Source: Myxococcus sp. (GTDB lineage: Bacteria; Myxococcota; Myxococcia; Myxococcales; Myxococcaceae). From it: a stretch of 51,958 bases of DNA. The stretch lies in the NCBI GenBank assembly GCA_014879945.1, contig JACSRE010000369.1, positions 1 through 51,958 on the forward strand, in the 5' to 3' direction. Below the pieces are notes generated by a model. That model searched no databases. It was given only the letters and a program-made list of their open reading frames with translations, and was not told the DNA's origin. The translations under genes were made by a program, and so were the position numbers. How positions within the stretch are numbered: the stretch's first letter is position 1; each line of letters starts with the position of its first letter. Shown one piece after another: positions 4,376 through 50,351 of this stretch.

Positions 4376-4510
4376 GTGCTCTCCGCTCGCGTACGCCACG
4401 TCGCCACCCGGAGCTGGTTCGTACCGTGCGTCGTGCTCCTGTTCACGCTCGCGGCCCACGCCGTCTTCACCCTTCCCGGCGGGCCCGACAGCCGCACGGC
4501 GTACCCCCGC
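4376..4510 (+). other. Displaced N-terminal segment of the downstream membrane protein (frameshift)
   Basis: From a GTG at 4376 this frame encodes a basic start followed by a clear membrane helix (WFVPCVVLLFTLAAHAVFTL) and then PGGPDSRTAYP. It loses sense after the C-run at 4504-4508. The next frame picks up at once with PPLPTWDEGTVLYG, the start of the membrane protein. Adding one C to the run of five would give Y-P-P-L-P-T-W-D-E-G in one frame and a protein of 526 residues. This looks like one gene broken by a single-base deletion, either real or a sequencing error. Confidence 0.7.
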
Positions 4511-5955
4511 TCCCCACGTGGGACGAGGGCACGGTGCTCTACGGCGCGCTCCGGGTGGCGCAGGGCGAGGTGCTGTACCGGGACTTCTTCGAGTTCCAGG
4601 GCCCGGTCTTCTTCTGGCTCTTCTCCTGGCTCTTCGGGTGGCTGGGGCCGTCGATGCCCGCCGCGCAGGCGCTTCAGGTGCTCCTCAACGCCTCGAGCGC
4701 GCTGGGCCTGGCCGTCGTGGTGGCGCGGCTCGCGGGGCCGGTCATCGCGCTCACCTCGTCGGTCCTCTTCGTCTGCCTCATCGTGCCGATGTGGCCGCAC
4801 GCGTACCCGCACTGGCTCGCCCTGCTCTTCGTGCACGCCGCCCTCGCGCTGCTGGCCGGAGCGCGACCTGCCTGGTGGCGGCTGGGGCTGGCGGGGGCCT
4901 GTCTCGGCTTGTCGATGGCCACCATTCAGTCGCTCGGCGTCGCCGCGTTCGGGGCGAGCGTGGTGGGCGTGCTGGTCTCGGGAGCGGGCGCGCGGCGGTG
5001 GCGCGCCGGCGTGATGGCCGCCCTCCCCCTCGTCGCCGGCGCGCTGATCGTCGTCGGCGTCATCGCGGCCCTCTTCGCGGCGCACGGCGCGCTGGGGGAC
5101 CTCGCGTGGGCGATGTTCGAGTGGCCCTTCAAGCACTACCGCGGCATCAACTCGACGAGCTACGCCGCGTTCCTCGTCGATCACCTCGACTCCAACCGAT
5201 CGCAGCCGCACCTGTGGAGGCTGCTCTCGCAGGCTGGCGTGGTGGTGATCGCGGCGCTGCCCCTGCTGGCGATGATCTTCGGCGGCGCCGTGATCGTCGC
5301 CCAGGGCCGCGCCCTCCTTCGCCGAGCGGCGCCGATCGCGGGCGTGGTGCCAGCGATCGTCGCGGTGGCGGTGGTGCTCCCGCTCTTCGTCGCCCACACC
5401 CGCAGCGACGTCGTGCACCTCGCCTTCTTGTCGAGCCTGGCCTTCGTGGCGATGGCGGCGGCCGTCTCGCACTGGCCGGCGCTCGGGCGCCGGCTCGGCC
5501 TCGCCCTGAGCGTGCTCGCTGGCGTCTTCGCGCTCAACTTCTCGTGGAAGACGTACCGTTCGACGACGCACCCCGACCGGCCCATCAGCTTCAAGCAGGC
5601 CTGGGAGAAGCGCTTCACCTTCGCCGAGGCGCTCGAGGCCGCGGTGAAGCCAGGCGATCGCGTGGTGGTCGGCCCCGAAGGCAGCGGCGGCTACGCCTAC
5701 CTCTTCACCGGCACGGTGAACGCGACCTCGTACACCTACCTGCCCTTCGGGTGGCGCGCCGAGTCGGACTACCTCTCGAGCGCGCAGTGGGACCGCGCGG
5801 GCCGGGAGATCGTCGAGCGCCGCCCGGTGGTGATCGTCGTCGATGACGAGCAATGGGCGCGCCTGCTGCGCTCGGCGCCGGCGCTGTCGTCGATGTACGA
5901 GCAGCGCGACGAGCTCCGCCACCTGCGGCCCGCGCCCTCTCCCGGGGTTCCATGA
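4426..5955 (+). CDS. Multi-spanning membrane protein, GT-C glycosyltransferase-like (frameshifted 5' end)
   Basis: The open frame gives 509 residues, but the first 25 (Arg/Pro/His-rich) look like out-of-frame shadow. The real N-terminus is probably the helix encoded from 4376 in the neighbouring frame. The remainder has about ten hydrophobic helices up to residue 370 and a soluble C-terminal tail of about 130 residues. The first loop reads TWDEGTVLYGALRV with an Asp-Glu pair, then FFEFQGPVFFWLF. This is the arrangement of GT-C enzymes such as ArnT or dolichyl-phosphate-mannose-dependent transferases, which move a sugar from a polyprenyl carrier. No sure substrate can be named. The stop overlaps the next start (ATGA at 5952), so the two genes are translationally coupled. 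Assignment as GT-C is by topology and the DE loop only. Confidence 0.75.
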   Translation: MRRAPVHARGPRRLHPSRRARQPHGVPPLPTWDEGTVLYGALRVAQGEVLYRDFFEFQGPVFFWLFSWLFGWLGPSMPAAQALQVLLNASSALGLAVVVARLAGPVIALTSSVLFVCLIVPMWPHAYPHWLALLFVHAALALLAGARPAWWRLGLAGACLGLSMATIQSLGVAAFGASVVGVLVSGAGARRWRAGVMAALPLVAGALIVVGVIAALFAAHGALGDLAWAMFEWPFKHYRGINSTSYAAFLVDHLDSNRSQPHLWRLLSQAGVVVIAALPLLAMIFGGAVIVAQGRALLRRAAPIAGVVPAIVAVAVVLPLFVAHTRSDVVHLAFLSSLAFVAMAAAVSHWPALGRRLGLALSVLAGVFALNFSWKTYRSTTHPDRPISFKQAWEKRFTFAEALEAAVKPGDRVVVGPEGSGGYAYLFTGTVNATSYTYLPFGWRAESDYLSSAQWDRAGREIVERRPVVIVVDDEQWARLLRSAPALSSMYEQRDELRHLRPAPSPGVP

Positions 5956-34649: not shown

Positions 34650-35431
34650 CTACTTGAAGTCCCGCCGCTCGAAGATCTGCGTGGCGAACACCAGCACCAG
34701 CGCAGTGTAGGCCAGCGTATAGGCGGTGATCGAGAGCAGCTCCGAGTTCGAGGTCGGGTCGAAGTAGGTCGCGCGCGCCTTGAAGTCGAGCCGGTCGAAG
34801 TTCGGCAGCACGTAATAGATGGCCTTGCCCGCGTAGCGCAGCACGTCGAGCTTCGAGCGGTTGGCGAACGTGTACAGGTCTTCGGCCATGTGCCCGATGA
34901 AATACAGACACGTCACCGAGAGGCTCGAGACGTACTGTGAAGACGCCGACGCGAAGAGGAAGCACACCGCGGTCAACAGCACCACCTCGAGGAGCAACCC
35001 GTAGAGCGCGACCAGGTGCTCGCGGTGAATGCCGGTGCTGAAGGTCGCCGACGCGCCCGCCACCTCGAGCTGTATCAAGAAGAGCGCGCTCATGATGACC
35101 ACCAGGAACACCACGGTGATCACGTTGCCGAGGTAGCGGCCGACGAGGAACGCCGAGCGGCTGACGGGCTTGGCCACCACCATGAAGATGGTGCGCCGCT
35201 CGATCTCTCGTGGAATCAGCGCCGTGCCGAGGAAGATGGTCAGCGCGGGCGAGAGGAGCCCGATGACCCCCAACCCGAAGTCCGTCATCACCCGATCGAA
35301 GGTCGCGACCGTGAACTCGATCGAGACGGTCGTCGAGAAGACCATGATGAACGCGAAGACGAACAGCACCGAGGTCACCCGGTTCCGTCGCGCCTCGCGA
35401 AAGCCGTTGAGGGCGATGTTGAGGACGCCGT

Positions 35432-35435
<4 letters not shown>
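34650..35435 (-). CDS. pilI: ABC transporter permease PilI
   Basis: This 261-residue membrane protein has about six helices (e.g. VTSVLFVFAFIMVFSTTVSI, LGLGVIGLLSPALTIFLGTA, VITVVFLVVIMSALFLI, VVLLTAVCFLFASASSQYV) and the NosY-type segment LIPREIERRTIFMVVAKPVSR. It pairs with PilH to form an ABC transporter that is needed for pilus assembly in Myxococcus (family knowledge); the substrate is unknown. The GTG at 35435 overlaps the pilH stop (GTGA); a longer frame upstream is shadow of pilH. Located between pilH and the second sensor kinase. Confidence 0.9.
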
Positions 35436-36375
<940 letters not shown>

Positions 36376-36379
<4 letters not shown>

Positions 36380-37224
36380 TCGGAGATCCCCTTGAGGCGG
36401 CCGACGAGCCACGACGAGCGGCCTCGACCGGCTTCGACCGAGAGCTCACCGCCGTGCGGGTCGTGCGTCAGATCTGTGGGCCACTCGCCCGCGGCGATCA
36501 CGTCTTCGAGCGTCTGCGGGTCGCGCCCCGTCCTGGCCTTCGCGGCGACGATCGCCGCGTCGAGCTTCCGCAAGAGGCGCTCGATCTCGAGCTGCTTCTT
36601 GCGGTCAGACAAGAGCGTCATGCTCCCGTGGCCGCCCTCGTCCATCGCCTCCGAGATCATCGCGATGGCCTCGTCGAATTGGTCCTCGTCGACGAACTTC
36701 GCGGTCGCCGCGGCGATGGCGCCGGCGGGGGCGTTGGGCAGCTTCGAGATCTCGATGAACTCCTCGATGGCCGCGCGTTGGTCACGCTCGACGTAGGTCA
36801 GCAGGAACGCGCTCAGCATGCGCAGGCGGTAGTCGTCGGGAAACTGCTTCTTGCCCTTGCGCACCAGCTTCAGCGCGAGGTCGCCGTGCAGGTACTTGTC
36901 GCCGCCCAGGGAGTACACGGTCGCGAGCGAGAGGAAGTAGTAGGCGTGGAAGAAGCGGGGGTCGAGATCGGTGAGGAACTCACCGTAGGCGTACAGGTTC
37001 TTGTTGCGCTGCTCCGACTCCGGCTCGGCGATGCCGATCAACGTGCGGAGGAAATAGAGGTCGATGAGGAGCGGCAGGTGCGGCTTCGAGACCGTCGAGG
37101 CGATCGACCCACGAAGCAAGAGCGGCCTCAGCTCGCCCTCGTGTCTCGACTCGAGCGGAGCAGGCTCCGCCCGAGTCAAGATGAGGACTGCAACTGAGAC
37201 CGCCCCAATCCAGAATCGGATCAC
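36376..37224 (-). CDS. pilG: Pilus assembly protein PilG (myxobacterial type)
   Basis: This 282-residue protein has an N-terminal signal-like helix (MIRFWIGAVSVAVLILT) and a body of paired helices with TPR-like spacing (e.g. LDPRFFHAYYFLSLATVYSL, AAIEEFIEISKLPNAPAG, DEAIAMISEAMDEGG). The C-terminal part (GRDPQTLEDVIAAGEWPTD, then DPHGGELSV) resembles the minor-pilin/TPR end segment seen in related proteins. It is probably periplasmic or anchored in the inner membrane. Identification rests mainly on its place directly after pilA and overlapping pilH, as in Myxococcus. The start is GTG, 31 bases after the pilA stop, so part of its expression may come from pilA read-through. It is unrelated to the PilG response regulator of Pseudomonas. 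Confidence 0.8.
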
Positions 37225-37255: not shown

Positions 37256-37954
37256 TTACTGCGCGCAGACGTCGTCGTTCACGGGGGCAGGGCTGCCCGA
37301 CGTGTACGCGGTCATGTTCGCGATGGTCATCGCAGGCGGGCAGCCGACGACGCCGATGGTCTCGATGGTCTGCGACGAAATCCACCACTCGTCGCCCTGG
37401 TCGTCGTTGTCGACGTTCGACTTGGCGCGCGCGGCGAAGTCGCAGTTCGGGCACGCAGCGCCGTTGACGCCGGCCATCGTGGCGACGAGCGCGGGGTTGG
37501 TATTCTCCGAGGTGAAGGTCGCGGTGCCCGAGGTCATGAGCGCGAGGATCGTCGCGTCGAGGAACTGGTTACCGTGGCGAACCGAGTCGACGCCGATGCC
37601 GCAGTCGTTGGCGGTGAGGGGAATGAGCGCGGCGGCGCGGCTCTGGAGCTGGCCGCAAGCACCCTGGGTACCCGACGCCACGTCCATCGCGACCGGCCCG
37701 AGGTCGTAGAGGTACCGGTTACCACGCTCAGGCTGGAAGCCGATCGCGCCGATGTCGCTCCAGTAGCCGTTGTTGGGCGAGAACGTCGCCTTCTGGGCCG
37801 AGAAGATGCCCTTGAGGTTCGAGTTCGCCTCGGCCTGCTTCCCCTTCGCCTGGAACTTGATGAAGTTCGGAATGGCGATGGCGGCGAGGATTCCGATGAT
37901 CGCGACGACGATCATCAGCTCGATCAGCGTGAAGCCCTTTTTCTTGTTGGTCAT
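37256..37954 (-). CDS. pilA: Major type IV pilin PilA
   Basis: This 232-residue prepilin has a short basic leader (MTNKKKG), cleaved before Phe in GFTLIELMIVVAIIGILAA, with Glu5 of the mature protein in place. The hydrophobic helix IELMIVVAIIGILAAIAIPN is the polymerisation core. The globular part ends with VVGCPPAM and DDVCAQ and contains six cysteines (two in CPNC), enough for three disulfides. Pilin polymerises into the extending and retracting fibre. The ATG at 37954 has GGAG five bases upstream. A sigma54-type promoter lies at 38002-38018. The gene is divergent from the fused transporter gene and is followed by pilG. Longer readings to 38143 cross the promoter. Confidence 0.96.
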   Translation of the reverse strand: MTNKKKGFTLIELMIVVAIIGILAAIAIPNFIKFQAKGKQAEANSNLKGIFSAQKATFSPNNGYWSDIGAIGFQPERGNRYLYDLGPVAMDVASGTQGACGQLQSRAAALIPLTANDCGIGVDSVRHGNQFLDATILALMTSGTATFTSENTNPALVATMAGVNGAACPNCDFAARAKSNVDNDDQGDEWWISSQTIETIGVVGCPPAMTIANMTAYTSGSPAPVNDDVCAQ

Positions 37955-38001
37955 GCGTTCTCCGACAGAGGTGGACGAGAAAGTTCGCCGAGCGGGCCAT
38001 G

Positions 38002-38018
38002 TGCACGAACGGCGCCAA
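38002..38018 (-). promoter_or_regulatory. Candidate sigma54 (-24/-12) promoter of pilA
   Basis: The minus strand reads TTGGCGCCGTTCGTGCA, with the invariant GG and GC separated by ten bases; apart from A-to-G, G-to-C and T-to-G changes it fits TTGGCAC(N)5TTGCA. It would start transcription near 37990, giving a leader of about 36 bases with a GGAG site. Sigma54 control of pilA is known in Myxococcus and Pseudomonas, and two NtrC-type regulators are encoded nearby. Confidence 0.7.
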
Positions 38019-38102
38019 GGGCAGAAACGCCCCGCGCGCAGGGTAGCTGATGGAAATGGGGCTGCCCAGTTTCTTTTCGGTGACCAACTGCGACACCGAC
38101 GC

Positions 38103-38117
38103 TGACGAAATTTGTCA
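38103..38117. promoter_or_regulatory. Near-palindrome TGACGAAATTTGTCA, possible activator site
   Basis: This 15-base near-perfect palindrome (one G/T mismatch pair around a central A) lies about 115-120 bases upstream of the inferred pilA start point, a usual distance for enhancer-binding regulators. It is also 56 bases from the start of the divergent fused gene, so it could serve either. A TGTC half-site (GTGTCGCA on the minus strand) lies beside it. Confidence 0.4.
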
Positions 38118-38172
38118 GTCGGGGCGCCGCGAATCTCTGGCACCGTAGCCTCGCCGTCGATCTGGAGGTCGT

Positions 38173-41100
38173 GTGCGTCGAGCGTGGGTGCTACCGCTGT
38201 TGCTGCTGTCTGGGTTCTCGGGGTTGGCCTACGAGTTGTTGTGGGTGCGCCTGCTGGCCTTGAGCCTGGGCGCCACCACGGCCTCGTTCTCGATCGTGCT
38301 GGCCGTCTTCTTCGGCGGGCTGGCGCTCGGGGCGAGGTGGGCAGGAAAGCGAAGTGTAGGTGCGCGGCGCCCGTTGGCGACCTACGCCGCGCTCGAGGCG
38401 CTCACTGGCCTCTTCGCGCTCGGCCTGTACCCGGTGCTGAAGAACCTCGGGGCGGTGGTCGCCGTGGTCGACCCCGGCACCGGGTCGGCGGGCCTGCTGC
38501 TGCGCATCGTGCTGTCGGCGATCCTGCTGCTGCCGCCCACGTTTCTGATGGGCGCCACCCTGCCCTTCGTGTCGGTCGGCACCATCGAGCGCGACGAAGC
38601 CAGCGGCTCTGGCACCGCGCTCATCTACGGGCTCAACACCCTCGGCGCGTGCCTGGGCGCCTTCTTCGTCACCTTCTTGATGTTGCCGCACCTGGGCGTC
38701 TTCGCGTCGACCATGGTGACGGCGCTGCTCAACCTCACCGTGGCGGCCATCGCCTTCGCCCTCAGCCGGCGCGCTGACGGCGACGGCGCCGCGGCGCCCG
38801 AGGTCACCACCCCCTCGCCGGCGCCCGACCAGCGTCGGCGCCTGGCCGTCGTGCTGGCAGCCGGGCTCGGCGGCCTGGTCGCCACGGGCGCGCAGGTCGT
38901 CTGGGCGCGGCTCTTCACCATCTCGCTGCGGGGCACCTCGTACGGCGTGGGCTCGGTGCTGGTGGTGGTGTTGATCGGCATCGCGCTCGGCAGCCTCCTG
39001 GCCTCGGCGGTGAGCCGGCGCGCGAAGCACGTCGCCACCTGGGCGGTCGCGTTTCAGCTGCTCTTCTTGATCGGCCTGATGGGCTTCGCGGCCGCGACGC
39101 CGATGATGAACTGGCTGGTCGGTACGCTCGGAAACACCGGCCTGGTGGGCACCAGTCGTCACCTCGCCGAGCTCGTCGCGGTGCTGGCCTTCCTGGGGCT
39201 GCCCACCATCGCGGCGGGCGCGATCCTCCCCTCGCTCGTCGCGGTGGCCGAGAGCTCGGCGCGAAACGCGGGCAAGACGCTCGCGGAGCTCTACTCGGCC
39301 AACACGCTGGGGTGCATCGCGGGCTCTCTCGTGACCGGGTTCGTGCTGCTGCCGGGCATCGGGTCGTCGGCGACGATGTACCTGGTCTTCCTGCTCCTGG
39401 CGGCGACGACGGTCATCTTCGCCATCGCGACCTGCGCCGATCGCCGCGCCGTCGTCGTGGCGGCGACCGGCGTGGTGCTCCTGGCGGCGGCGTTCTTCCC
39501 CCAGACCGACCCGCGCCTGATCTCGCCGCGCACGAACGCCTCTGACTACTTCACCTTCATGGGCGCTCAGCGCGCCGCGCTGGCGAACATCTCGTCGTAT
39601 TACGAAGGCGACGTCGCGACCGTGACGGTGTCGGTGACGGGTGACTCGCGGGGGCTCCTGCTCAACGGGCTCGGCCAGGGCTCGCGCAGCACCATCCCCC
39701 CCTTCATCGGGCACGAGTCGGTGCTGGTGGGCACCACGCCGTGGCTCCACGCACGAAACCAGCGCCGGGGGCTGGTCGTCGGCCTGGGCGCCGGAGGCAC
39801 CGTCGACGTGTTGCTCAAGCTGGGGGTCGAGCAGCTCGACGTCGCCGAGCTCGAGCGGGGCGTGGTGGACGCGATCGAAGAGATCTGGGGCGAGCAGTCG
39901 CCGCTGACGAACGCGCGCGTGAAGGTGATCAACAACGACGCCCGCCACCACCTGCTGATGGCCGCACGCGGCTCGGGCGACCGCTACGACTTCATCACCT
40001 CGATGCCGGCGCACCCGTGGGTCGCCTCGGCGCTGTTCACCCGGGAGTTCTTCGAGCTGGCCCGCGAGAACCTCGCCGAGGGCGGCGTCTTCTCGACCTG
40101 GTTCGGCCCCGCCGAGATGCCCGACGAGTCGATCGAGGGGCTCTTCGGGGCGTTCACCACCGTCTTCCCCCACACCATCACCTACTGGGTGCCCGAGGCC
40201 GGCGCGTTCTACCTGGTCGGCGCGACGCAGCCGCTCACCTTCGACGTCGCCCGGGCCGACTCGCTGATCACCCACCCCGTGATGGAGGGGCGCACCCGCG
40301 ACCAGGCCCGCGCGCTGTACATGGCGAGCCGGGTGACCGGCGTCACCACCCCCGAGAAGCCGGCCACCACCACCCGCACCAGCACCGACGACAACGGGCT
40401 GATCGAGTTCGGGCCTCAGCGGCCGCGCACGACGGGCGTGCTGGGGTCGCTCACCTACCTGCCAGTGAGGGCGCTGCCGGCCTCGATGATCGTGAACGCC
40501 CCCGCCCCCGACGCGTTCGCCCTCGAGGCCCTCGAGAACTCCATGGGCACGCGTGGCGCCTGGCTCCCCTTCTCGCCTGGCGACCCGTCGAGCACGGCGC
40601 GCGCGGTCTCGGCCATCGACCCGGGCTCGCCGCTGAGCGCCTACGCTACGTTCAGGACGGCCTTCGCTCAGGGCAAGCGCGCTGAAGCGATCACCCTGGC
40701 CGACGCCATCGAGGAGCCGGTGCAGCGCGACCGGGCCCGCGCGCTCCTCGCGTCGACCGAGCCTGACCCGGCCGCGCGGGTCGCCGCCCTCAAGCTTCTG
40801 CCGCCCCGCCCCGACGTGCGCGCCCTGCTCCTGTCGCTCGGAGAGCCCGACGACGGCGCGCGAGGACCGGCACCTGAGGTGGACGATGACCCGGTCGGGT
40901 GGCTCTTCGTCGGTGACGAGGCGCTCAAGGGCCTCGACGCCGAGGCCAAGGCGCGCGTCACCCGCGCCCTCAACCAGCGCATCGCAGCCTTCGAGAGCCC
41001 GGCGCTCGCGCGCACCGCGCAGCGCCTCTACGAGGCCGCCGGGTGGACCGAGAGCGCCTCGTGGGCCCAGAGCATGGTGCTCGCGGCCCAGCGCGCGGCG

Positions 41101-41385
41101 AGCGGCAAGCTCGTCAGGCGCGCCCTCGATGCCGGCTCGAAGGAGCGCTACGCCGAGGCCGTCAGGCTGCTGCTCGAGGCCGAGCACCTGGCGCCGCTGC
41201 GGGAGCCCCAGGTCAAGACGCTGCTGCAGACCGCGCTCCGCCTCAACGACGTCGCGGCGATTCAGACCGCCCGCGACATGCTGCTGATGCGCGGCTACGA
41301 GCGGGCCACCATCACCGGCCTCGAGGCGAGCCTGCGGGCCGCCAACGAGAAAGAGAAAGAAGCAGCGCGCCCCGCCCCCCCGTAG
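38173..41385 (+). CDS. Membrane transporter-like protein fused to a spermidine-synthase-like domain
   Basis: This 1070-residue protein belongs to the 'fused MFS/spermidine synthase' group. About residues 1-430 hold roughly twelve or more membrane helices, starting VLPLLLLSGFSGLAYELLWV, a typical opening of these proteins. Residues about 465-690 are a Rossmann methyltransferase/aminopropyltransferase fold (YYEGDVATVTVSV, GLVVGLGAGGTVDVLL, LDVAELERGVVDAI). The last 300 residues are helical, Ala/Arg-rich and TPR-like. The motif GGGDGG of true synthases is GLGAGG here, and the segment that carries the catalytic Asp in SpeE reads SMPAHPW, so polyamine synthesis is doubtful. The GTG at 38173 has GGAGG upstream. 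It sits between pilA and pilR on the opposite strand, with four bases to the pilR stop. Confidence 0.8.
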   Translation: MRRAWVLPLLLLSGFSGLAYELLWVRLLALSLGATTASFSIVLAVFFGGLALGARWAGKRSVGARRPLATYAALEALTGLFALGLYPVLKNLGAVVAVVDPGTGSAGLLLRIVLSAILLLPPTFLMGATLPFVSVGTIERDEASGSGTALIYGLNTLGACLGAFFVTFLMLPHLGVFASTMVTALLNLTVAAIAFALSRRADGDGAAAPEVTTPSPAPDQRRRLAVVLAAGLGGLVATGAQVVWARLFTISLRGTSYGVGSVLVVVLIGIALGSLLASAVSRRAKHVATWAVAFQLLFLIGLMGFAAATPMMNWLVGTLGNTGLVGTSRHLAELVAVLAFLGLPTIAAGAILPSLVAVAESSARNAGKTLAELYSANTLGCIAGSLVTGFVLLPGIGSSATMYLVFLLLAATTVIFAIATCADRRAVVVAATGVVLLAAAFFPQTDPRLISPRTNASDYFTFMGAQRAALANISSYYEGDVATVTVSVTGDSRGLLLNGLGQGSRSTIPPFIGHESVLVGTTPWLHARNQRRGLVVGLGAGGTVDVLLKLGVEQLDVAELERGVVDAIEEIWGEQSPLTNARVKVINNDARHHLLMAARGSGDRYDFITSMPAHPWVASALFTREFFELARENLAEGGVFSTWFGPAEMPDESIEGLFGAFTTVFPHTITYWVPEAGAFYLVGATQPLTFDVARADSLITHPVMEGRTRDQARALYMASRVTGVTTPEKPATTTRTSTDDNGLIEFGPQRPRTTGVLGSLTYLPVRALPASMIVNAPAPDAFALEALENSMGTRGAWLPFSPGDPSSTARAVSAIDPGSPLSAYATFRTAFAQGKRAEAITLADAIEEPVQRDRARALLASTEPDPAARVAALKLLPPRPDVRALLLSLGEPDDGARGPAPEVDDDPVGWLFVGDEALKGLDAEAKARVTRALNQRIAAFESPALARTAQRLYEAAGWTESASWAQSMVLAAQRAASGKLVRRALDAGSKERYAEAVRLLLEAEHLAPLREPQVKTLLQTALRLNDVAAIQTARDMLLMRGYERATITGLEASLRAANEKEKEAARPAPP

Positions 41386-41388
41386 CCG

Positions 41389-42745
<1,357 letters not shown>

Positions 42746-42753
<8 letters not shown>

Positions 42754-44368
42754 GCACGGCTCCCTCGACGGCGTTGGCCTCTGCTGACCCGAGCATGAAG
42801 CAGAACGTCGTGCCCGTGCTGGGTGAAGAGGCCACGGTGATTCGGGCGCCGTGGGCGTGCGCGATCGACTGCGCCGTCGAGAGCCCCAGCCCGGTGCCGT
42901 CGGGTTCGCGGCTGTAGAAGGGCTCGAAGAGGCGGTTCAGCTCGTCCGGCGGCACCGAGCCCGCGCTGTCCCAGACCTCGAAGAGGGCGTCGCCCTGCCC
43001 GTGCACCGACACCCGCACCGTGCCGCGCGGCCCGGCGGCGCGAAAGGCGTTGCGGAGCAGGTTGATGAGCACCTGCTTGATCTGCGCGGGGTCGAGCTGG
43101 GCGGTCCGCGGCTCGAGGTGCTCCTCGATGGTGGCCCCTCGCGCGGCCGGGTCGGCGCGCAGCACCTCGACGGTCTCGGCCACCAGGGTGTCGACGCGCA
43201 CGGGCCGGCGCTGAGGCTCCTTCGGGCGGGCCAGCTCCAGGTAGTGGTCGACGAGGTTCGCGAGGCGATCAGCCTCTCGCACGATGATCTGGCTCAGCCG
43301 CTCCTGGGGTGACCCGTGCGGCGCGTCGCTCAGCAGCATCTGCGCCGAGCCGCGCATCGAGGCGAGCGGGTTGCGCACCTCGTGGGCCAGCGTGGCCGAG
43401 ACCCGCCCCAGCTCGGCCAGCTGATCGAGCCTCGTCATCTCGTCCTCCTTACGCCGCACGTCGGTCAGGTCCTGAAAGACGACCAGCAGCGAGCCCGACT
43501 CGTCGAGGGGGGTGGTCGAGATGCCGAGAATGCGGTCGCCGTTGACGGTCGACACCACGCTCTCCCAGCGGCGCCCGGCGCGAATCGCCCGCACGGCGGG
43601 GAAGAGCGCGTCGATGGTGGGGAACGGAGGCGTCGGGTCGAGCCCCAGAATGGCGAGCCCAGCCGGGTTGATGAACCGCACGAGCCCGGTGGCCTCGGAG
43701 ACGGCCAGGCCCGAGGTGATGCTGGTCACGATTCGGTCGCGCAGCAGCTTGGTGCGCGCGAGATCCTCCTCGCTCGTCACCAGCTGACCCCGCGCGCGAA
43801 TGAGCTGCTCGGCGACGTAGGCGCTCAAGATGGCGACCAACACCTGGGCCAGCAGCTGGGTGCCGGTCTCGACGAGCCGCGGGTGGCCCTCTGGCGCCGA
43901 CGCGTGCACCCAGGCCGAGATGGTGATCGTCGCGGCCGCCGAGGCCACCGACGAGCCCAGGGCGCCCTTCCGGCCCAGCACCACCGAGCCGCCGATCACC
44001 GCCAACAGGTACGTGAACCAGAACGGTGACTCGAAGTTGTCGGTCAGCAGCACGATCGAGGTGGCGAAGGCCACCGCGCCCAGCACCTGCCCCCAGGCCA
44101 GGGGGAGCCCGGCGTAGCCACGCCGTAGCGCGATCGCCGTCACCAGCGTCACCAGGTAGTCCACGGCGACGACGGTGAACCAGGCCACCTCGCTGCCGGT
44201 CATCGTCTGCGTCACGGGCCTGGGGCCCACTCGCAGCACCGCGAGGATGAGGATCAGCGTGGCGGCGACGGTGCGAAACACCACCAGCGCGGTGAGGCGC
44301 AGGCGGAATTCAGAGAGCTCAGGTGGGGCTGCAGTGACGGCGGTCGCGCGGGCGCTACTTGATGGCAC
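42746..44368 (-). CDS. pilS: Sensor histidine kinase PilS
   Basis: This 540-residue kinase has six membrane helices in its first 190 residues (e.g. LTALVVFRTVAATLILILAV, VLGAVAFATSIVLLTD, FTYLLAVIGGSVVL). A PAS-type domain follows (about 205-320; VTSITSGLAVSEATGLVRFI), then the phosphoacceptor His in ATLAHEVRNPLASMRGSA, and the ATP domain with LINLLRNAFRAAG, a shortened G1 region (VWDSAGSV, weaker than the usual DNGxGI) and GTGLGLSTAQS. In Pseudomonas PilS senses pilin in the membrane; the same six-helix layout is seen here. It starts with GTG inside the end of pilC (14-base overlap) and overlaps pilR, so pilC-S-R are tightly coupled. Confidence 0.93.
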
Positions 44369-46861: not shown

Positions 46862-48568
46862 CTAGAAGCGATCAGGGGCGGTGTTGCCGACAGCCTCTTC
46901 GAGCGTGCTGTCGCCACGCATGACCTTGTTGAGGGCCGACATGCGGAGCGTCTGCATGCCGAGCCGAATCGCCTCTTGTTTGATCTCGGCCGCCGACGCG
47001 CCGTTGATCACGATCTCTTTGAGCCCGTCCCAGAAGGGCATCACCTCGTAGACGGCCACGCGGCCGCGGTAGCCGCGATCGTTGCACTCCTTGCACCCGA
47101 CCTTCTCGTAGGCGGTGAAGGTGCCGATCTTCTCCTGGGGAATGCCGGCGTCGGTGTAGGCCTTCTCGTCGAACTCGGCCACCGGCCGCTTGCAGTTGGG
47201 GCAGAGCCGGCGGCACAGGCGCTGCGCCAGAATGAGGTTGAGCGACGCGGTGACGTTGAAGGGCTCGATGCCCATGTTGAGCAGGCGCGTCACCGTCGAG
47301 GGCGCGTCGTTGGTGTGGAGCGTGGACAGCACGAGGTGGCCCGTGAGCGCCGCCTTGACCGCGATCTCGGCCGTCTCGAAGTCTCGCACCTCGCCGATCA
47401 TGATGGTGTCGGGGTCTTGCCGCAGGAAGCTGCGCAGCGCGGCCGCGAAGCTCAGGCCGATGCTCTCTGACACCTGCACCTGGTTGATGCCGGCGAAGTT
47501 GAACTCGACCGGATCTTCTGCGGTCGACACGTTGGTGGTGGGGTCGTTGAGCGCCGCGAGCGCCGAGTAGAGCGTCGTCGTCTTGCCTGAGCCGGTGGGG
47601 CCCGTCACCAGCACCATGCCGTACGGGCGATCGATGGCCTCTTTGAACCACTTGAGCGGCTCGGGCTCGAAGCCCAGCTTGGTCATGTCGAGCTGCAGGT
47701 TCGACTTGTCGAGCAGACGCATGACGATCTTCTCGCCGAAGAGCGTCGGGCAGACGCTCACGCGGAAGTCCATCTCTTTGCCGCCGCCCAGCTTGATCTT
47801 GATGCGGCCGTCCTGCGGGAGCCGGCGCTCGCTGATGTCGAGCTGCGCCATGATCTTCAGGCGTGAGGTGATGGCGTTGCGCAGCTTGATGGGCGGCTTC
47901 ATCACCTCGTACATCACGCCGTCGATGCGGAACCGAACCCGGAAGTCCTTCTCGTAGGGCTCGATGTGAATGTCAGAGGCGCGCTTGCCGATGGCGTCCT
48001 TCAAGATGAGGTTCACCAGCTTGATGACGGGCGCGTCGTCGGCGGCCTTCGCCATCTCTTCGACGTTGCCGCCGGCGTCGTCGCCGTCGGCGACCTCGAC
48101 GTCATCTTCCATGTTGCTGATGATGTCTTCGAGGTTGGGGCCCTTCTCGGCGTAGTACTTCTCGATCGCCTCGCGCAGCGCGGGCTCGCTGGTGACGACC
48201 GGCTCGATGTTGTAGCCGGTGAGGAACTTGAGATCGTCGACCGCGTAGATGTTCGACGGGTCGCACATCGCCACGATGAGCGAGCTGCCGGCGCGGTTGA
48301 CCGGAATCACCAGGTGCTTCTCGGCGACGTCCTTGGGGACGAGCTTGATGATGTCGGGGTCGACATCGAACTCTTTGAGGTTGATGGCCGGAACGCCGTA
48401 CTGCTTCGACAAGAAGTCGGTGAGCTTCGACTCCTCGATGGCACCGACCTTGATCAAGGCGGTGCTGATACGAGTCCCGTTCTTCTGCTGATCTTCTTGC
48501 GCTTTTCGCAGCTGCTGCACCGAGATCAGATTCTCGCGGACGAGCAGCTCACCCAGACGGCCTGACAT
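46862..48568 (-). CDS. pilB: Pilus extension ATPase PilB
   Basis: This 568-residue ATPase has an N-terminal MshEN/GspE-N domain (about 1-150) starting RLGELLVREN, whose 24-residue repeat (residues 4-27) fits the c-di-GMP-binding pattern with Arg, Leu, Gly, Leu, Leu and Gln conserved and one Leu replaced by Gln. The motor domain has Walker A GPTGSGKTTT, Walker B MIGEVRDFETAEIAV, the His box GHLVLSTLHTNDAP, and a four-Cys zinc site (CRRLCPNCKRP and VGCKECNDRG). PilB powers pilin addition. The ATG at 48568 has GAGAGG upstream. It heads the pilB-T-C-S-R run, downstream of ribF with a 112-base spacer holding a candidate promoter. Confidence 0.96.
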   Translation of the reverse strand: MSGRLGELLVRENLISVQQLRKAQEDQQKNGTRISTALIKVGAIEESKLTDFLSKQYGVPAINLKEFDVDPDIIKLVPKDVAEKHLVIPVNRAGSSLIVAMCDPSNIYAVDDLKFLTGYNIEPVVTSEPALREAIEKYYAEKGPNLEDIISNMEDDVEVADGDDAGGNVEEMAKAADDAPVIKLVNLILKDAIGKRASDIHIEPYEKDFRVRFRIDGVMYEVMKPPIKLRNAITSRLKIMAQLDISERRLPQDGRIKIKLGGGKEMDFRVSVCPTLFGEKIVMRLLDKSNLQLDMTKLGFEPEPLKWFKEAIDRPYGMVLVTGPTGSGKTTTLYSALAALNDPTTNVSTAEDPVEFNFAGINQVQVSESIGLSFAAALRSFLRQDPDTIMIGEVRDFETAEIAVKAALTGHLVLSTLHTNDAPSTVTRLLNMGIEPFNVTASLNLILAQRLCRRLCPNCKRPVAEFDEKAYTDAGIPQEKIGTFTAYEKVGCKECNDRGYRGRVAVYEVMPFWDGLKEIVINGASAAEIKQEAIRLGMQTLRMSALNKVMRGDSTLEEAVGNTAPDRF

Positions 48569-48597
48569 GTATGATTGCCTCTCGCGTTCGGCGAAGG

Positions 48598-48613
48598 TCG
48601 ACGTCGACGTCGA
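48598..48613. repeat. 16-bp perfect palindrome in the pilB leader
   Basis: TCGACGTCGACGTCGA is its own reverse complement. It lies 30-45 bases upstream of the pilB ATG, between the candidate -10 and the ribosome site, so it could be an operator or a leader hairpin. The gene-poor spacer is otherwise unremarkable, and GTCGAC-type words are common in this GC-rich DNA. Confidence 0.7.
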
Positions 48614-48621
48614 GGCGCGAA

Positions 48622-48650
48622 ATGGAACCCCCTGCGCCCCGTCGAGTCAA
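48622..48650 (-). promoter_or_regulatory. Candidate sigma70-type promoter of pilB
   Basis: On the minus strand TTGACT (complement of 48645-48650) is followed after 17 bases by TTCCAT (complement of 48622-48627). The -35 matches five of six consensus bases and the -10 three of six. Position and spacing suit pilB, but the -10 is weak, so this is tentative. Confidence 0.35.
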
Positions 48651-48680
48651 GCTTTCATGAAGGTGTACGACGGTGTGGGC

Positions 48681-49607
48681 TCACCCGGACAGCCGGCGGT
48701 TGAAGACGACGCGGGCGGCCACCACGTCGCGCTCGATCTGGGCCTTGAGCGCGTCGAGCCCCGAAAAGCGCTGCTCCGAGCGCAGCCGCTCCAGGAACGC
48801 GACCCGGAGCGTCTGCCCGTACAGATCTTCGGCGAGCTCGAAGAGGTGGCACTCGATGGTGACCTCGCCGCCGCCCACGGTGGGCTTCGTGCCGATGTTG
48901 CAGGCCCCGCCCACGCGCCGGCCGTCGGCCAGCCGCACCTCGATGGCGTACACCCCTGCGGCGGGGCGCAGCTCGTTGGGCGTGTCGACGTTGGCCGTGG
49001 GGAACCCGATGGTGCGGCCGCGCTGGGCCCCTTTGACGACGACGCCGTCGAGATCGAACGGCCGACCCAGCATTCGCGCCGCCGCTTCGACGCGGCCCTC
49101 GAGCACGTACTCGCGCACCCGGCTCGACGACACCACCACCCCCTCGAGCGTGACGGGCTCGACGATCGACACCGTCGCGCCCGCGGCGAGCGCGGCGCCC
49201 TCCAGGCGCTCCACGGTGCCCGCGCGCGCCTTGCCGTAGGTGAAGTCGGCGCCCACCACCACCGCTTGCGCGCCCAGGGTCTCGAACAGCAGCGCCTCGA
49301 ACTCCGCGGGCGTGGTGCGCGCGAACTCCCTCGTGAAGGGCTGCACCACGCACGCGTGCACGCCCGCCGCCGCCAGCAGCTCCAGCTTGCGCGCCGAGGT
49401 CGCGATCAGCCGAGGCGCCAGCTCCGGGTGCAGCACCTTGCCGGGGTGCGGGTCGAAGGTCACCGCCACCACCCGCCCCAGCGTGGCGGCGCGCGCGAAG
49501 AGCGCCTGGTGGCCCAGGTGCACCCCGTCGAAGTTCCCCAGACTGGCCGCGCAGCCGCGCAGGTTGCCCGCGCGGCCGGCCTCAACGAGGGTGGAGTACG
49601 TCTGCAT
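48681..49607 (-). CDS. ribF: Bifunctional riboflavin kinase / FAD synthetase RibF
   Basis: This 308-residue enzyme turns riboflavin into FMN and then FAD. The N-terminal adenylyltransferase half (1-180) has ASLGNFDGVHLGHQALF (the G-x-F-D-G-x-H-x-G-H nucleotide site), VTFDPHPGKVLHP, VVGADFTYGKARAGT and the VSSSRVREYVLEG segment. The C-terminal kinase half (185-305) has RGRTIGFPTANVD and the acidic catalytic segment VTIECHLFELAEDLYG. The ATG at 49607 is preferred because a GGAGGTG ribosome site lies at the right distance; the GTG at 49616 sits in that site. It is divergent from trmB (99-base spacer, no FMN riboswitch seen) and upstream of pilB. Confidence 0.94.
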   Translation of the reverse strand: MQTYSTLVEAGRAGNLRGCAASLGNFDGVHLGHQALFARAATLGRVVAVTFDPHPGKVLHPELAPRLIATSARKLELLAAAGVHACVVQPFTREFARTTPAEFEALLFETLGAQAVVVGADFTYGKARAGTVERLEGAALAAGATVSIVEPVTLEGVVVSSSRVREYVLEGRVEAAARMLGRPFDLDGVVVKGAQRGRTIGFPTANVDTPNELRPAAGVYAIEVRLADGRRVGGACNIGTKPTVGGGEVTIECHLFELAEDLYGQTLRVAFLERLRSEQRFSGLDALKAQIERDVVAARVVFNRRLSG

Positions 49608-49706
49608 CAGGCGCACCTCCTAAGCCTCGGCCACGGGCCCTGTCGACGGCCATTCACACTGGGCGCTGTCGCAACGGCGAAAGGTGTGGTTGAGCCGGGC
49701 CCGCTC

Positions 49707-50351
49707 ATGTCTCGCATTCCGCTACGACCCGAAAAGGCCGGAGAAGATCTCGCGGCCCTCACCTCGCCGCCCGACTGGGACCAGCTCTTCGGCCGCGCCG
49801 GCTCCCTCGAGCTCGAGATCGGCTGCGGGGCGGGCGGCTTCGCGCTCGAGCACTGCCGCCGCGACCCCTCGATTCGCTACCTCGCGTTCGAGTGGCGCAA
49901 GAAGTACGCGCGCGAGGTCTCGTTCCGCGCGCAGAAGCACGGCCTCACCGGCCTGAAGGTCATCGAGGGTGACGCGCGCATCGTGGTGCCGAAGATCTTC
50001 GCGCCCGGCTCGCTCGACGTGATCCACCTGCAGTTCCCCGACCCGTGGTGGAAGCGCGCCCACTTCAAGCGCGCCATCTTGACGCCCGACTTCACCAGGG
50101 TGCTGCTGGGGCTGCTCAAGCCCGGGGGGCGGTTCGACTTCCGCACCGACGTCGAGGAGCGCGCCCGCCAGGGCCTCGCGGTGCTCGAGAAGGCCGGGTT
50201 CCACAACCCGCTCGGCCCCGGCGTCTTCCACCCCTACGATCCCGAAGAGGCGCCCTCGACCCGCGAGCGCCGGTACCTGGTGACCAACCAGCCGGTCTAC
50301 CGCGCCAGGCTGGTGAGGCTGTCTTCGGCGCAGGGTGCAGTAGGCTCCTGA
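49707..50351 (+). CDS. trmB: tRNA (guanine-N7-)-methyltransferase TrmB
   Basis: This 214-residue SAM-dependent enzyme methylates G46 in the variable loop of tRNAs. The SAM-binding motif is LELEIGCGAGGFAL, the acidic loop is KVIEGDARIVVP, and the family signature is HLQFPDPWWKRAHFKRAIL. Near the C-terminus are RTDVEERARQGL and PSTRERRYL, with the T-x-x-E-x-R element that binds tRNA. The ATG at 49707 (MSRIPLRPEKAG) is used; an in-frame GTG at 49686 is possible. A far longer frame reaching into pilB is antisense shadow. It is followed after 6 bases by the diguanylate cyclase gene. Confidence 0.95.
   Translation: MSRIPLRPEKAGEDLAALTSPPDWDQLFGRAGSLELEIGCGAGGFALEHCRRDPSIRYLAFEWRKKYAREVSFRAQKHGLTGLKVIEGDARIVVPKIFAPGSLDVIHLQFPDPWWKRAHFKRAILTPDFTRVLLGLLKPGGRFDFRTDVEERARQGLAVLEKAGFHNPLGPGVFHPYDPEEAPSTRERRYLVTNQPVYRARLVRLSSAQGAVGS

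Follow-up and report, generated by a model that had tools for sequence, protein, structure and literature searches.

A pilA-linked, MFS/spermidine-synthase-like membrane protein gene between pilR and pilA in a Myxococcus type IV pilus cluster

Why should a gene for a fused transporter/spermidine-synthase-like protein lie between pilR and pilA, in a type IV pilus cluster? This arrangement is found in Myxococcus sp. (NCBI GenBank assembly GCA_014879945.1, a genome of 7.7 Mb in 448 contigs), on contig JACSRE010000369.1, whose positions 1 to 51,958 are called here the window. The first-pass annotation of the window described a 3.2-kb gene on the opposite strand that separates the two pil genes and shares the upstream spacer of pilA, and this description was borne out: the gene at 38173-41385 (+) matches the family model NF037959 (MFS_SpdSyn; MFS, major facilitator superfamily), it is flanked on either side by pilR and pilA, both on the minus strand, and it is separated from pilA by 218 bp once the start of pilA is set at the ATG at 37954, given that the upstream GTG of the mechanical open reading frame (ORF) is not the real start. 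The gene and pilA are divergent, and the gene and pilR are convergent and 3 bp apart. Read along the minus strand, the order is pilB, pilT, pilC, pilS, pilR, the fused gene (on the plus strand), pilA, pilG, pilH, pilI, pilS2 and pilR2, where several of the pil names are given by position only. The reading that we favour, with a probability of roughly 45%, is that the 1070-residue product is a pilin-linked accessory membrane protein of the type IV pilus, possibly modifying the pilin or an envelope component.

The evidence that carries this reading is the company that the gene keeps. In a protein search of 99 relatives (on the named records, metagenome-assembled genomes labelled Archangiaceae, Myxococcaceae or Myxococcales), orthologs, taken as matches above 40% identity, were found in G000-G003, G005-G007 and G050, seven of them full-length and one split. 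A genome profile search, which scores few candidates per genome and could miss weak orthologs, detected the gene in 8/145 genomes of the order (E <= 1e-150) and in 10/195 of the phylum (E <= 1e-110); within the order, the carriers belong to three genera. A scan of viral contigs yielded a single fragment, which did not enter the analysis. In all eight ortholog-bearing genomes of the family the gene adjoins pilA and is divergent from it, and for this reason the position beside pilA is not a product of chance; the possibility raised at first pass, that the position might be unique to this genome, can be set aside. In G003 the gene is split by a contig break that leaves its start and its end on different contigs, the former next to pilA and the latter next to pilR; these halves were not joined, and the alignments use the seven full-length orthologs. 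Within genus g1 the ortholog lies between pilR and pilA. Two rearranged genomes, from two different genera, separate the two neighbours: in G007 the block formed by the gene, pilA, pilG, pilH, pilI and pilS2 has been turned round as a whole between pilR and pilR2, so that the ortholog now adjoins pilR2, and in G050 the ortholog is found with two pilA copies, pilG, pilH and pilI on contig C472, while pilC, pilS, pilR and pilS2 are on C343. In both cases the ortholog was parted from pilR and stayed with pilA. A pilus or envelope role, along the lines first proposed, is the best reading of this linkage.

The gene itself is protein-coding and, by its substitution pattern, is under purifying selection. 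Against the nearest ortholog the nonsynonymous and synonymous divergences (dN and dS) are 0.16 and 0.83, with a codon mismatch of 0.43 at the third position and 0.12 at the second; the dN/dS pairs against four orthologs are 0.16/0.83, 0.21/0.76, 0.32/0.80 and 0.31/0.88. The match to NF037959 scores 109.2 bits (curated cut-off 40), and PF01564 is matched at residues 522-672 with 41.4 bits (cut-off 22.9). With the MFS_SpdSyn family the protein shares the two-part architecture and the motifs around the transmembrane helices TM1 (Y-E/Q-x-x-W-x-R) and TM7 (W-x-R); it differs from the rest in forming its own clade with the motif SMPAHPW, in the change of a TM7 Glu to Gln, and in its linkage to pilA within the family. 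When the family profile was run against PDB sequences, 30 of them matched at E <= 0.1: aminopropyltransferases and, with weaker scores, a number of methyltransferases.

The topology of the protein was predicted from charge counts over 13 helices, whose borders were placed manually on the protein of the window from the hydropathy and the helices of an AlphaFold2 model, one long helix being divided in two. With these borders, odd loops have 11-19 Lys plus Arg residues and even loops 1-3 in 26/26 aligned family members. From this bias and the number of helices it is predicted that the N terminus is inside, and that the synthase-like domain and the C-terminal solenoid are in the periplasm. The AlphaFold2 models are too weak for an active-site reading and were used solely for the MFS-like fold and the solenoid. 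The full-length model has a mean pLDDT (predicted local distance difference test) of 54.1, with 41-70 in the blocks of the membrane part; in a Foldseek search with this low-confidence model, MFS-type transporters lead (37 matches at E <= 0.001, TMt 0.33-0.71). The model of the soluble part has a mean pLDDT of 60.2, mostly 75-94 in the solenoid blocks and poor in the synthase-like domain; none of its 913 Foldseek matches was below E 0.001, and the 50 listed are mostly tetratricopeptide repeat (TPR) or other helical-repeat proteins and SpeE enzymes, with E values of 0.007-0.08.

Compared with SpeE (PF01564; PDB 1uir, 3anx, 1inl), the protein has a synthase-type domain with the Gly-rich loop, the acidic ribose-site residue and the Asp of the NDAR motif. 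Gly537, Gly539, Gly541, Glu559 and Asp589 do not vary among the seven orthologs and vary little or not at all across 26 rows, and a TDD motif at 738-740 is kept alongside the Gly-rich loop, Glu559 and Asp589. It departs from SpeE in being a membrane-fused protein of 1070 residues, predicted periplasmic, in which neither catalytic Asp is kept: in the alignment, Met611 and His614 stand opposite the two catalytic Asp of 1uir. The motif around them, SMPAHPW, is present in 9/9 clade rows, i.e., the seven aligned family proteins and two relatives from family f17; 17 of the 19 paralogs have S-x-P-x-x-P-W/Y in other letters (SEPSNPW, SVPSNPW, SDPIHPW, SEPSNPY), and two (L030 and L047) have no match. 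In the membrane part, position 241 in TM7 is Gln in 7/7 orthologs versus Glu in 19/19 paralogs, and position 135 in TM4 is Val, Leu or Ala in the orthologs versus Arg (17), Lys (1) or Leu (1) in the 19 paralogs. In a tree of 29 rows, where long branches meet and the deeper joins were not used, the seven pilA-linked proteins group together (starred, 100/99) within the starred SMPAHPW clade of nine (100/100). The equivalog cut-offs of SpeE are missed widely: TIGR00417, 40.2 bits of 249.55; PRK00811, 53.9 of 260; PRK03612, 95.9 of 472. These data suggest that the annotation "spermidine synthase" is wrong for the SMPAHPW clade.

How might such a protein serve the pilus? The closest known way of working may be that of the accessory cassettes of Pseudomonas pilins. 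According to PMC11841053, TfpO and TfpW glycosylate the pilin, and TfpY is no pilin glycosyltransferase and promotes pilus assembly. As in the Pseudomonas cassettes (TfpO, TfpW, TfpX/Y/Z), a gene for a membrane protein adjoins pilA and stays with it (8/8 ortholog-bearing genomes of the family, against 0/2 in f17). Membership of these cassettes is not claimed, and the likeness is one of arrangement. In the scheme that we propose, the MFS-like domain, with its 12 helices plus one, would anchor the protein in the inner membrane, the synthase-like domain and the solenoid would be in the periplasm alongside the globular part of PilA, and the solenoid would dock the pilin or the assembly machine. 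The MFS part could then hand a small donor across the membrane, and the periplasmic domain, in which the residues of the nucleotide pocket are kept and those for aminopropyl transfer are lost, could modify the pilin or some component of the envelope close by. The gene, its domains, the conserved linkage, the lost catalytic residues and the motifs specific to the clade are observed, the topology and the solenoid are predicted, and the action on the pilin, its chemistry and the donor are what we infer. The full form of this scheme, a self-contained transporter-transferase of the pilus in which the MFS half carries an activated small donor across the inner membrane and the redesigned synthase domain uses it in the periplasm to modify the co-inherited pilin, is in our estimation improbable; if true, pilins would be modified here in a novel way, and the fold of enzymes that employ S-adenosylmethionine (SAM) would be put to work in the periplasm.

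Several observations weigh against a pilin-linked accessory role. The Pseudomonas accessory genes are downstream of pilA, whereas the fused gene is divergent in 8/8; Pfam and NCBIfam scans of the 1070-residue protein detected no glycosyltransferase domain of the TfpO/TfpW type, and the synthase-like domain is poorly modelled. A dyad that precedes pilA (described below) is also present before pilA in genomes without the ortholog (L054, L065, L068, L090, L093, L117, L119, L120). Two members with SMPAHPW, G159 and G160 of family f17, have no PilA match by tblastn (1e-4) in 18.0 and 13.7 kb, respectively; the contig of G159 reaches only 2.9 kb beyond the upstream end of the gene, and a strongly diverged pilin could have escaped the search. 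PilC relatives occur in both genomes, and the protein is therefore able to exist without pilA beside it. The ortholog is patchy, in 8/145 genomes of the order, versus a PilC match (E <= 1e-120) in 92/99 relatives, and five of the six listed g16 genomes lack it; G004, placed in the genus, has neither the ortholog nor a PilC match at 1e-120. General pilus assembly therefore does not need the protein, and by this distribution it does not appear to be a core type IV pilus component, which would be present wherever the pilus machine is. Finally, in G021 a pilin gene has next to it the gene for an MFS_SpdSyn protein from a different subfamily, and linkage to a pilin is thus not unique to the SMPAHPW clade.

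Part of this evidence also favours the alternative that the gene encodes an envelope or transport protein without a role in the pilus, held beside pilA by a promoter region that is hard to break or by shared ancestry. MFS_SpdSyn proteins are common in the genomes of the relatives, 65/99 of which have a match to the 1070-residue protein, and no pilin was found in the flanks (up to 1.5 kb) of 22 paralog loci, L014-L035, a sample in which at least four flanks are shortened by contig ends and from which many paralogs are missing; this last result also counts for the accessory reading. The restriction of the ortholog to three genera of the order, and the two f17 members located elsewhere, point the same way. 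Nevertheless, the two rearrangements part the gene from pilR and not from pilA, and sister genera have pilA without the gene, so that it could have been lost or moved; we regard the absence of a pilus role as unlikely, without being negligible.

A second alternative is a non-catalytic factor that, like TfpY, would aid the assembly or stability of its partner pilin in the fibre, with the synthase fold as a scaffold and the solenoid doing the work. This would account for the loss of both catalytic Asp positions and for the predicted location of the synthase-like domain in the periplasm, where SAM is not expected; the solenoid is of a kind typically used for protein-protein contacts. TfpY itself provides the precedent of assembly without pilin glycosylation (PMC11841053). 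Against it, the residues of the nucleotide pocket are still conserved, and of all parts of the protein the solenoid has diverged most in all four orthologs compared, with 55-67% identity versus 64-76% for the synthase-like part. We hold such a non-catalytic role to be rather doubtful. The weakest alternative, a protein that transports, senses or makes polyamines in connection with the pilus, as entertained at first pass, draws on the family name, the MFS fold and Foldseek matches that include, among many MFS proteins, vesicular monoamine transporters and an entry entitled "The spm-bound structure", yet moving or making polyamines is not supported, because the SpeE Asp pair is absent, the equivalog models are missed and the domain is predicted periplasmic, and with the membrane Glu of the paralogs also replaced, polyamine handling is unlikely and this reading highly improbable.

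A literature search for links of spermidine-synthase-like proteins, or of their membrane-fused forms, with type IV pili, pilA or the periplasm surfaced, at the level of the listings, nothing of apparent relevance and no assigned role, and the word "spermidine" is absent from the main text of PMC6060248 on myxobacterial pilus clusters. The pilA-tied clade offers a concrete place to test the role of the MFS_SpdSyn proteins.

Another aspect of the locus is the spacer common to the fused gene and pilA. Sequences of the form TGGCG(C/T)CG(T/A)TCGTGCA, resembling a sigma-54 promoter, are found 63-65 bp before pilA in 6/6 spacers of the genus, with the dyad at 163-166 bp; the window has two occurrences of the dyad pattern. 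PilR would be the presumed binder of the dyad. The strict promoter pattern had no match near pilA in G007 or G050, and a looser scan matched 8/11 (G007) and 7/11 (G050) consensus letters in a similar location. The dyad is at 148 bp from the first pilA of G050 and is missing in G007. Among the genomes without the ortholog, it is missing before pilA in L055, L059, L069, L071, L073 and L083, among others. Since it precedes pilA also in genomes without the fused gene, the dyad belongs to pilA, and the idea that the fused gene brings its own shared enhancer was rejected. No sigma-70 promoter for the fused gene was found in 37900-38400, and a sigma-54 promoter is not claimed for it: several spacers share a TGGCAC close to its start, with the -12 GC in place in only 2/8 (L043, L044). 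Regulation of the fused gene together with pilA, as suggested at first pass, is conjectural. The coordinates of these elements and of the genes around them are given in Table 1.

Table 1. Features of the fused gene, its product and its surroundings (positions of the window).
Feature	Position	Strand	Basis and remarks
Fused MFS/spermidine-synthase-like gene	38173..41385	+	1070 aa, GTG start, intact ORF; ORF list and Pfam/NCBIfam scans
MFS-like membrane part, residues 1-445	38173..39507	+	13 predicted helices (12 plus one leading to the soluble part); hydropathy, charge counts, Foldseek
Spermidine-synthase-like domain, residues 446-760	39508..40452	+	Predicted periplasmic; profiles, PDB search, charge counts
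SMPAHPW motif, residues 610-616	40000..40020	+	Replaces Asp-x-x-Asp-Pro of SpeE; alignments
C-terminal alpha-solenoid, TPR-like, residues about 805-1064	40585..41364	+	AlphaFold2 model of the soluble part and Foldseek
Spacer common to the fused gene and pilA	37955..38172	.	218 bp
Dyad TGAC-N7-GTCA	38103..38117	.	Candidate enhancer, putatively bound by a PilR-type activator; about 100 bp upstream of the pilA promoter
Sigma-54-like promoter of pilA, TGGCGCCGTTCGTGCA	38002..38017	-	Agrees with the consensus at 8-9 of its 11 letters in each of the 6 spacers of the genus
pilA, major pilin	37256..37954	-	232 aa; PF14245 and N-methylation motif
pilR, sigma-54-dependent response regulator	41389..42753	-	Domain scans; name from cluster position
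pilS, sensor kinase	42746..44368	-	Pfam; name from position
pilG-position gene	36376..37224	-	Named from position; no Pfam or NCBIfam match
pilH-position ABC ATPase	35432..36412	-	Pfam and synteny
pilI-position ABC-2 permease	34650..35330	-	Start approximate; Pfam scores slightly below cut-off

The first-pass annotation took pilR and pilA to be the usual neighbours. This holds for G011, G023, G027, G028 and G059, where pilR abuts pilA (L054, L065, L068, L069 and L090), and fails in many other relatives, in which the pilA block is inverted and pilR faces pilI. In four other g16 genomes (L063, L074, L076, L080) pilR runs straight into pilS2 and pilR2, and therefore the pilA-G-H-I block left the main cluster there too. 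Genes for EIIA-Man domains were observed in or beside displaced g16 pilin blocks, at L115:458-919 and L043:19557-19970 (both PF03610) and, by similar sequence only, at L117:8167-8736.

Other proteins occupy the same slot. In G045 (L083:5997-7745) an ORF of 583 residues, membrane-type by eye, is found between pilR and pilA and points the same way as the fused gene; it shares with the 1070-residue protein the many hydrophobic stretches (by eye) and a C-terminal TPR, and differs in having no MFS_SpdSyn match in the domain scans. Its DDE-type motif presumably resembles that of GT-C (TMTC-like) transferases, with no database match. The G021 protein mentioned above (L115:1697-5377) is a single ORF, divergent from a pilin gene, that combines MFS_SpdSyn (106.4 bits) with an extra PAP2_3 domain; unlike the 1070-residue protein it has no S-x-P-x-x-P-W/Y match, and it groups with L047 on long branches outside the SMPAHPW clade. 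G010 has an ORF of 520 residues, also membrane-type by eye, between pilI and a pilin gene. These parallels, few and hand-picked among the loci fetched, suggest a pattern, and those in G021 and G045 count in favour of the accessory reading: given that the place divergent from the pilin gene holds the fused protein in three genera, the PAP2 fusion in G021 and a TPR membrane-type protein in G045, myxobacterial pilins may, by analogy with those of Pseudomonas, carry type-specific accessory genes. In L055 the gene divergent from pilA encodes a prepilin peptidase (Pfam), with L061 and L073 alike by eye, a neighbour that may have its origin in the inverted pilA block. The idea that PilD, the prepilin peptidase, is absent and replaced was rejected, as PF06750 occurs once in each of the six genomes searched, the source genome included.

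The source genome also has a second pilA-like gene (L122, G000:C413:7671-8378, -), with 72% identity to the main pilin; its 10.6-kb contig has no match to the fused MFS/synthase protein, and the gene adjoins an ATPase gene resembling an ABC-F protein (by eye) and an ORF of 1052 residues. Elsewhere in the window, the ORF at 4426-5955 (+) has 509 residues and no Pfam match at 0.001; its start is reminiscent of GT-C sugar transferases. Adjoining pilB, the ORF at 48567-50351 (+) has 594 residues, with a Methyltransf_4 match restricted to residues 415-543, and either its mechanical start may be too early or a second domain may be present.

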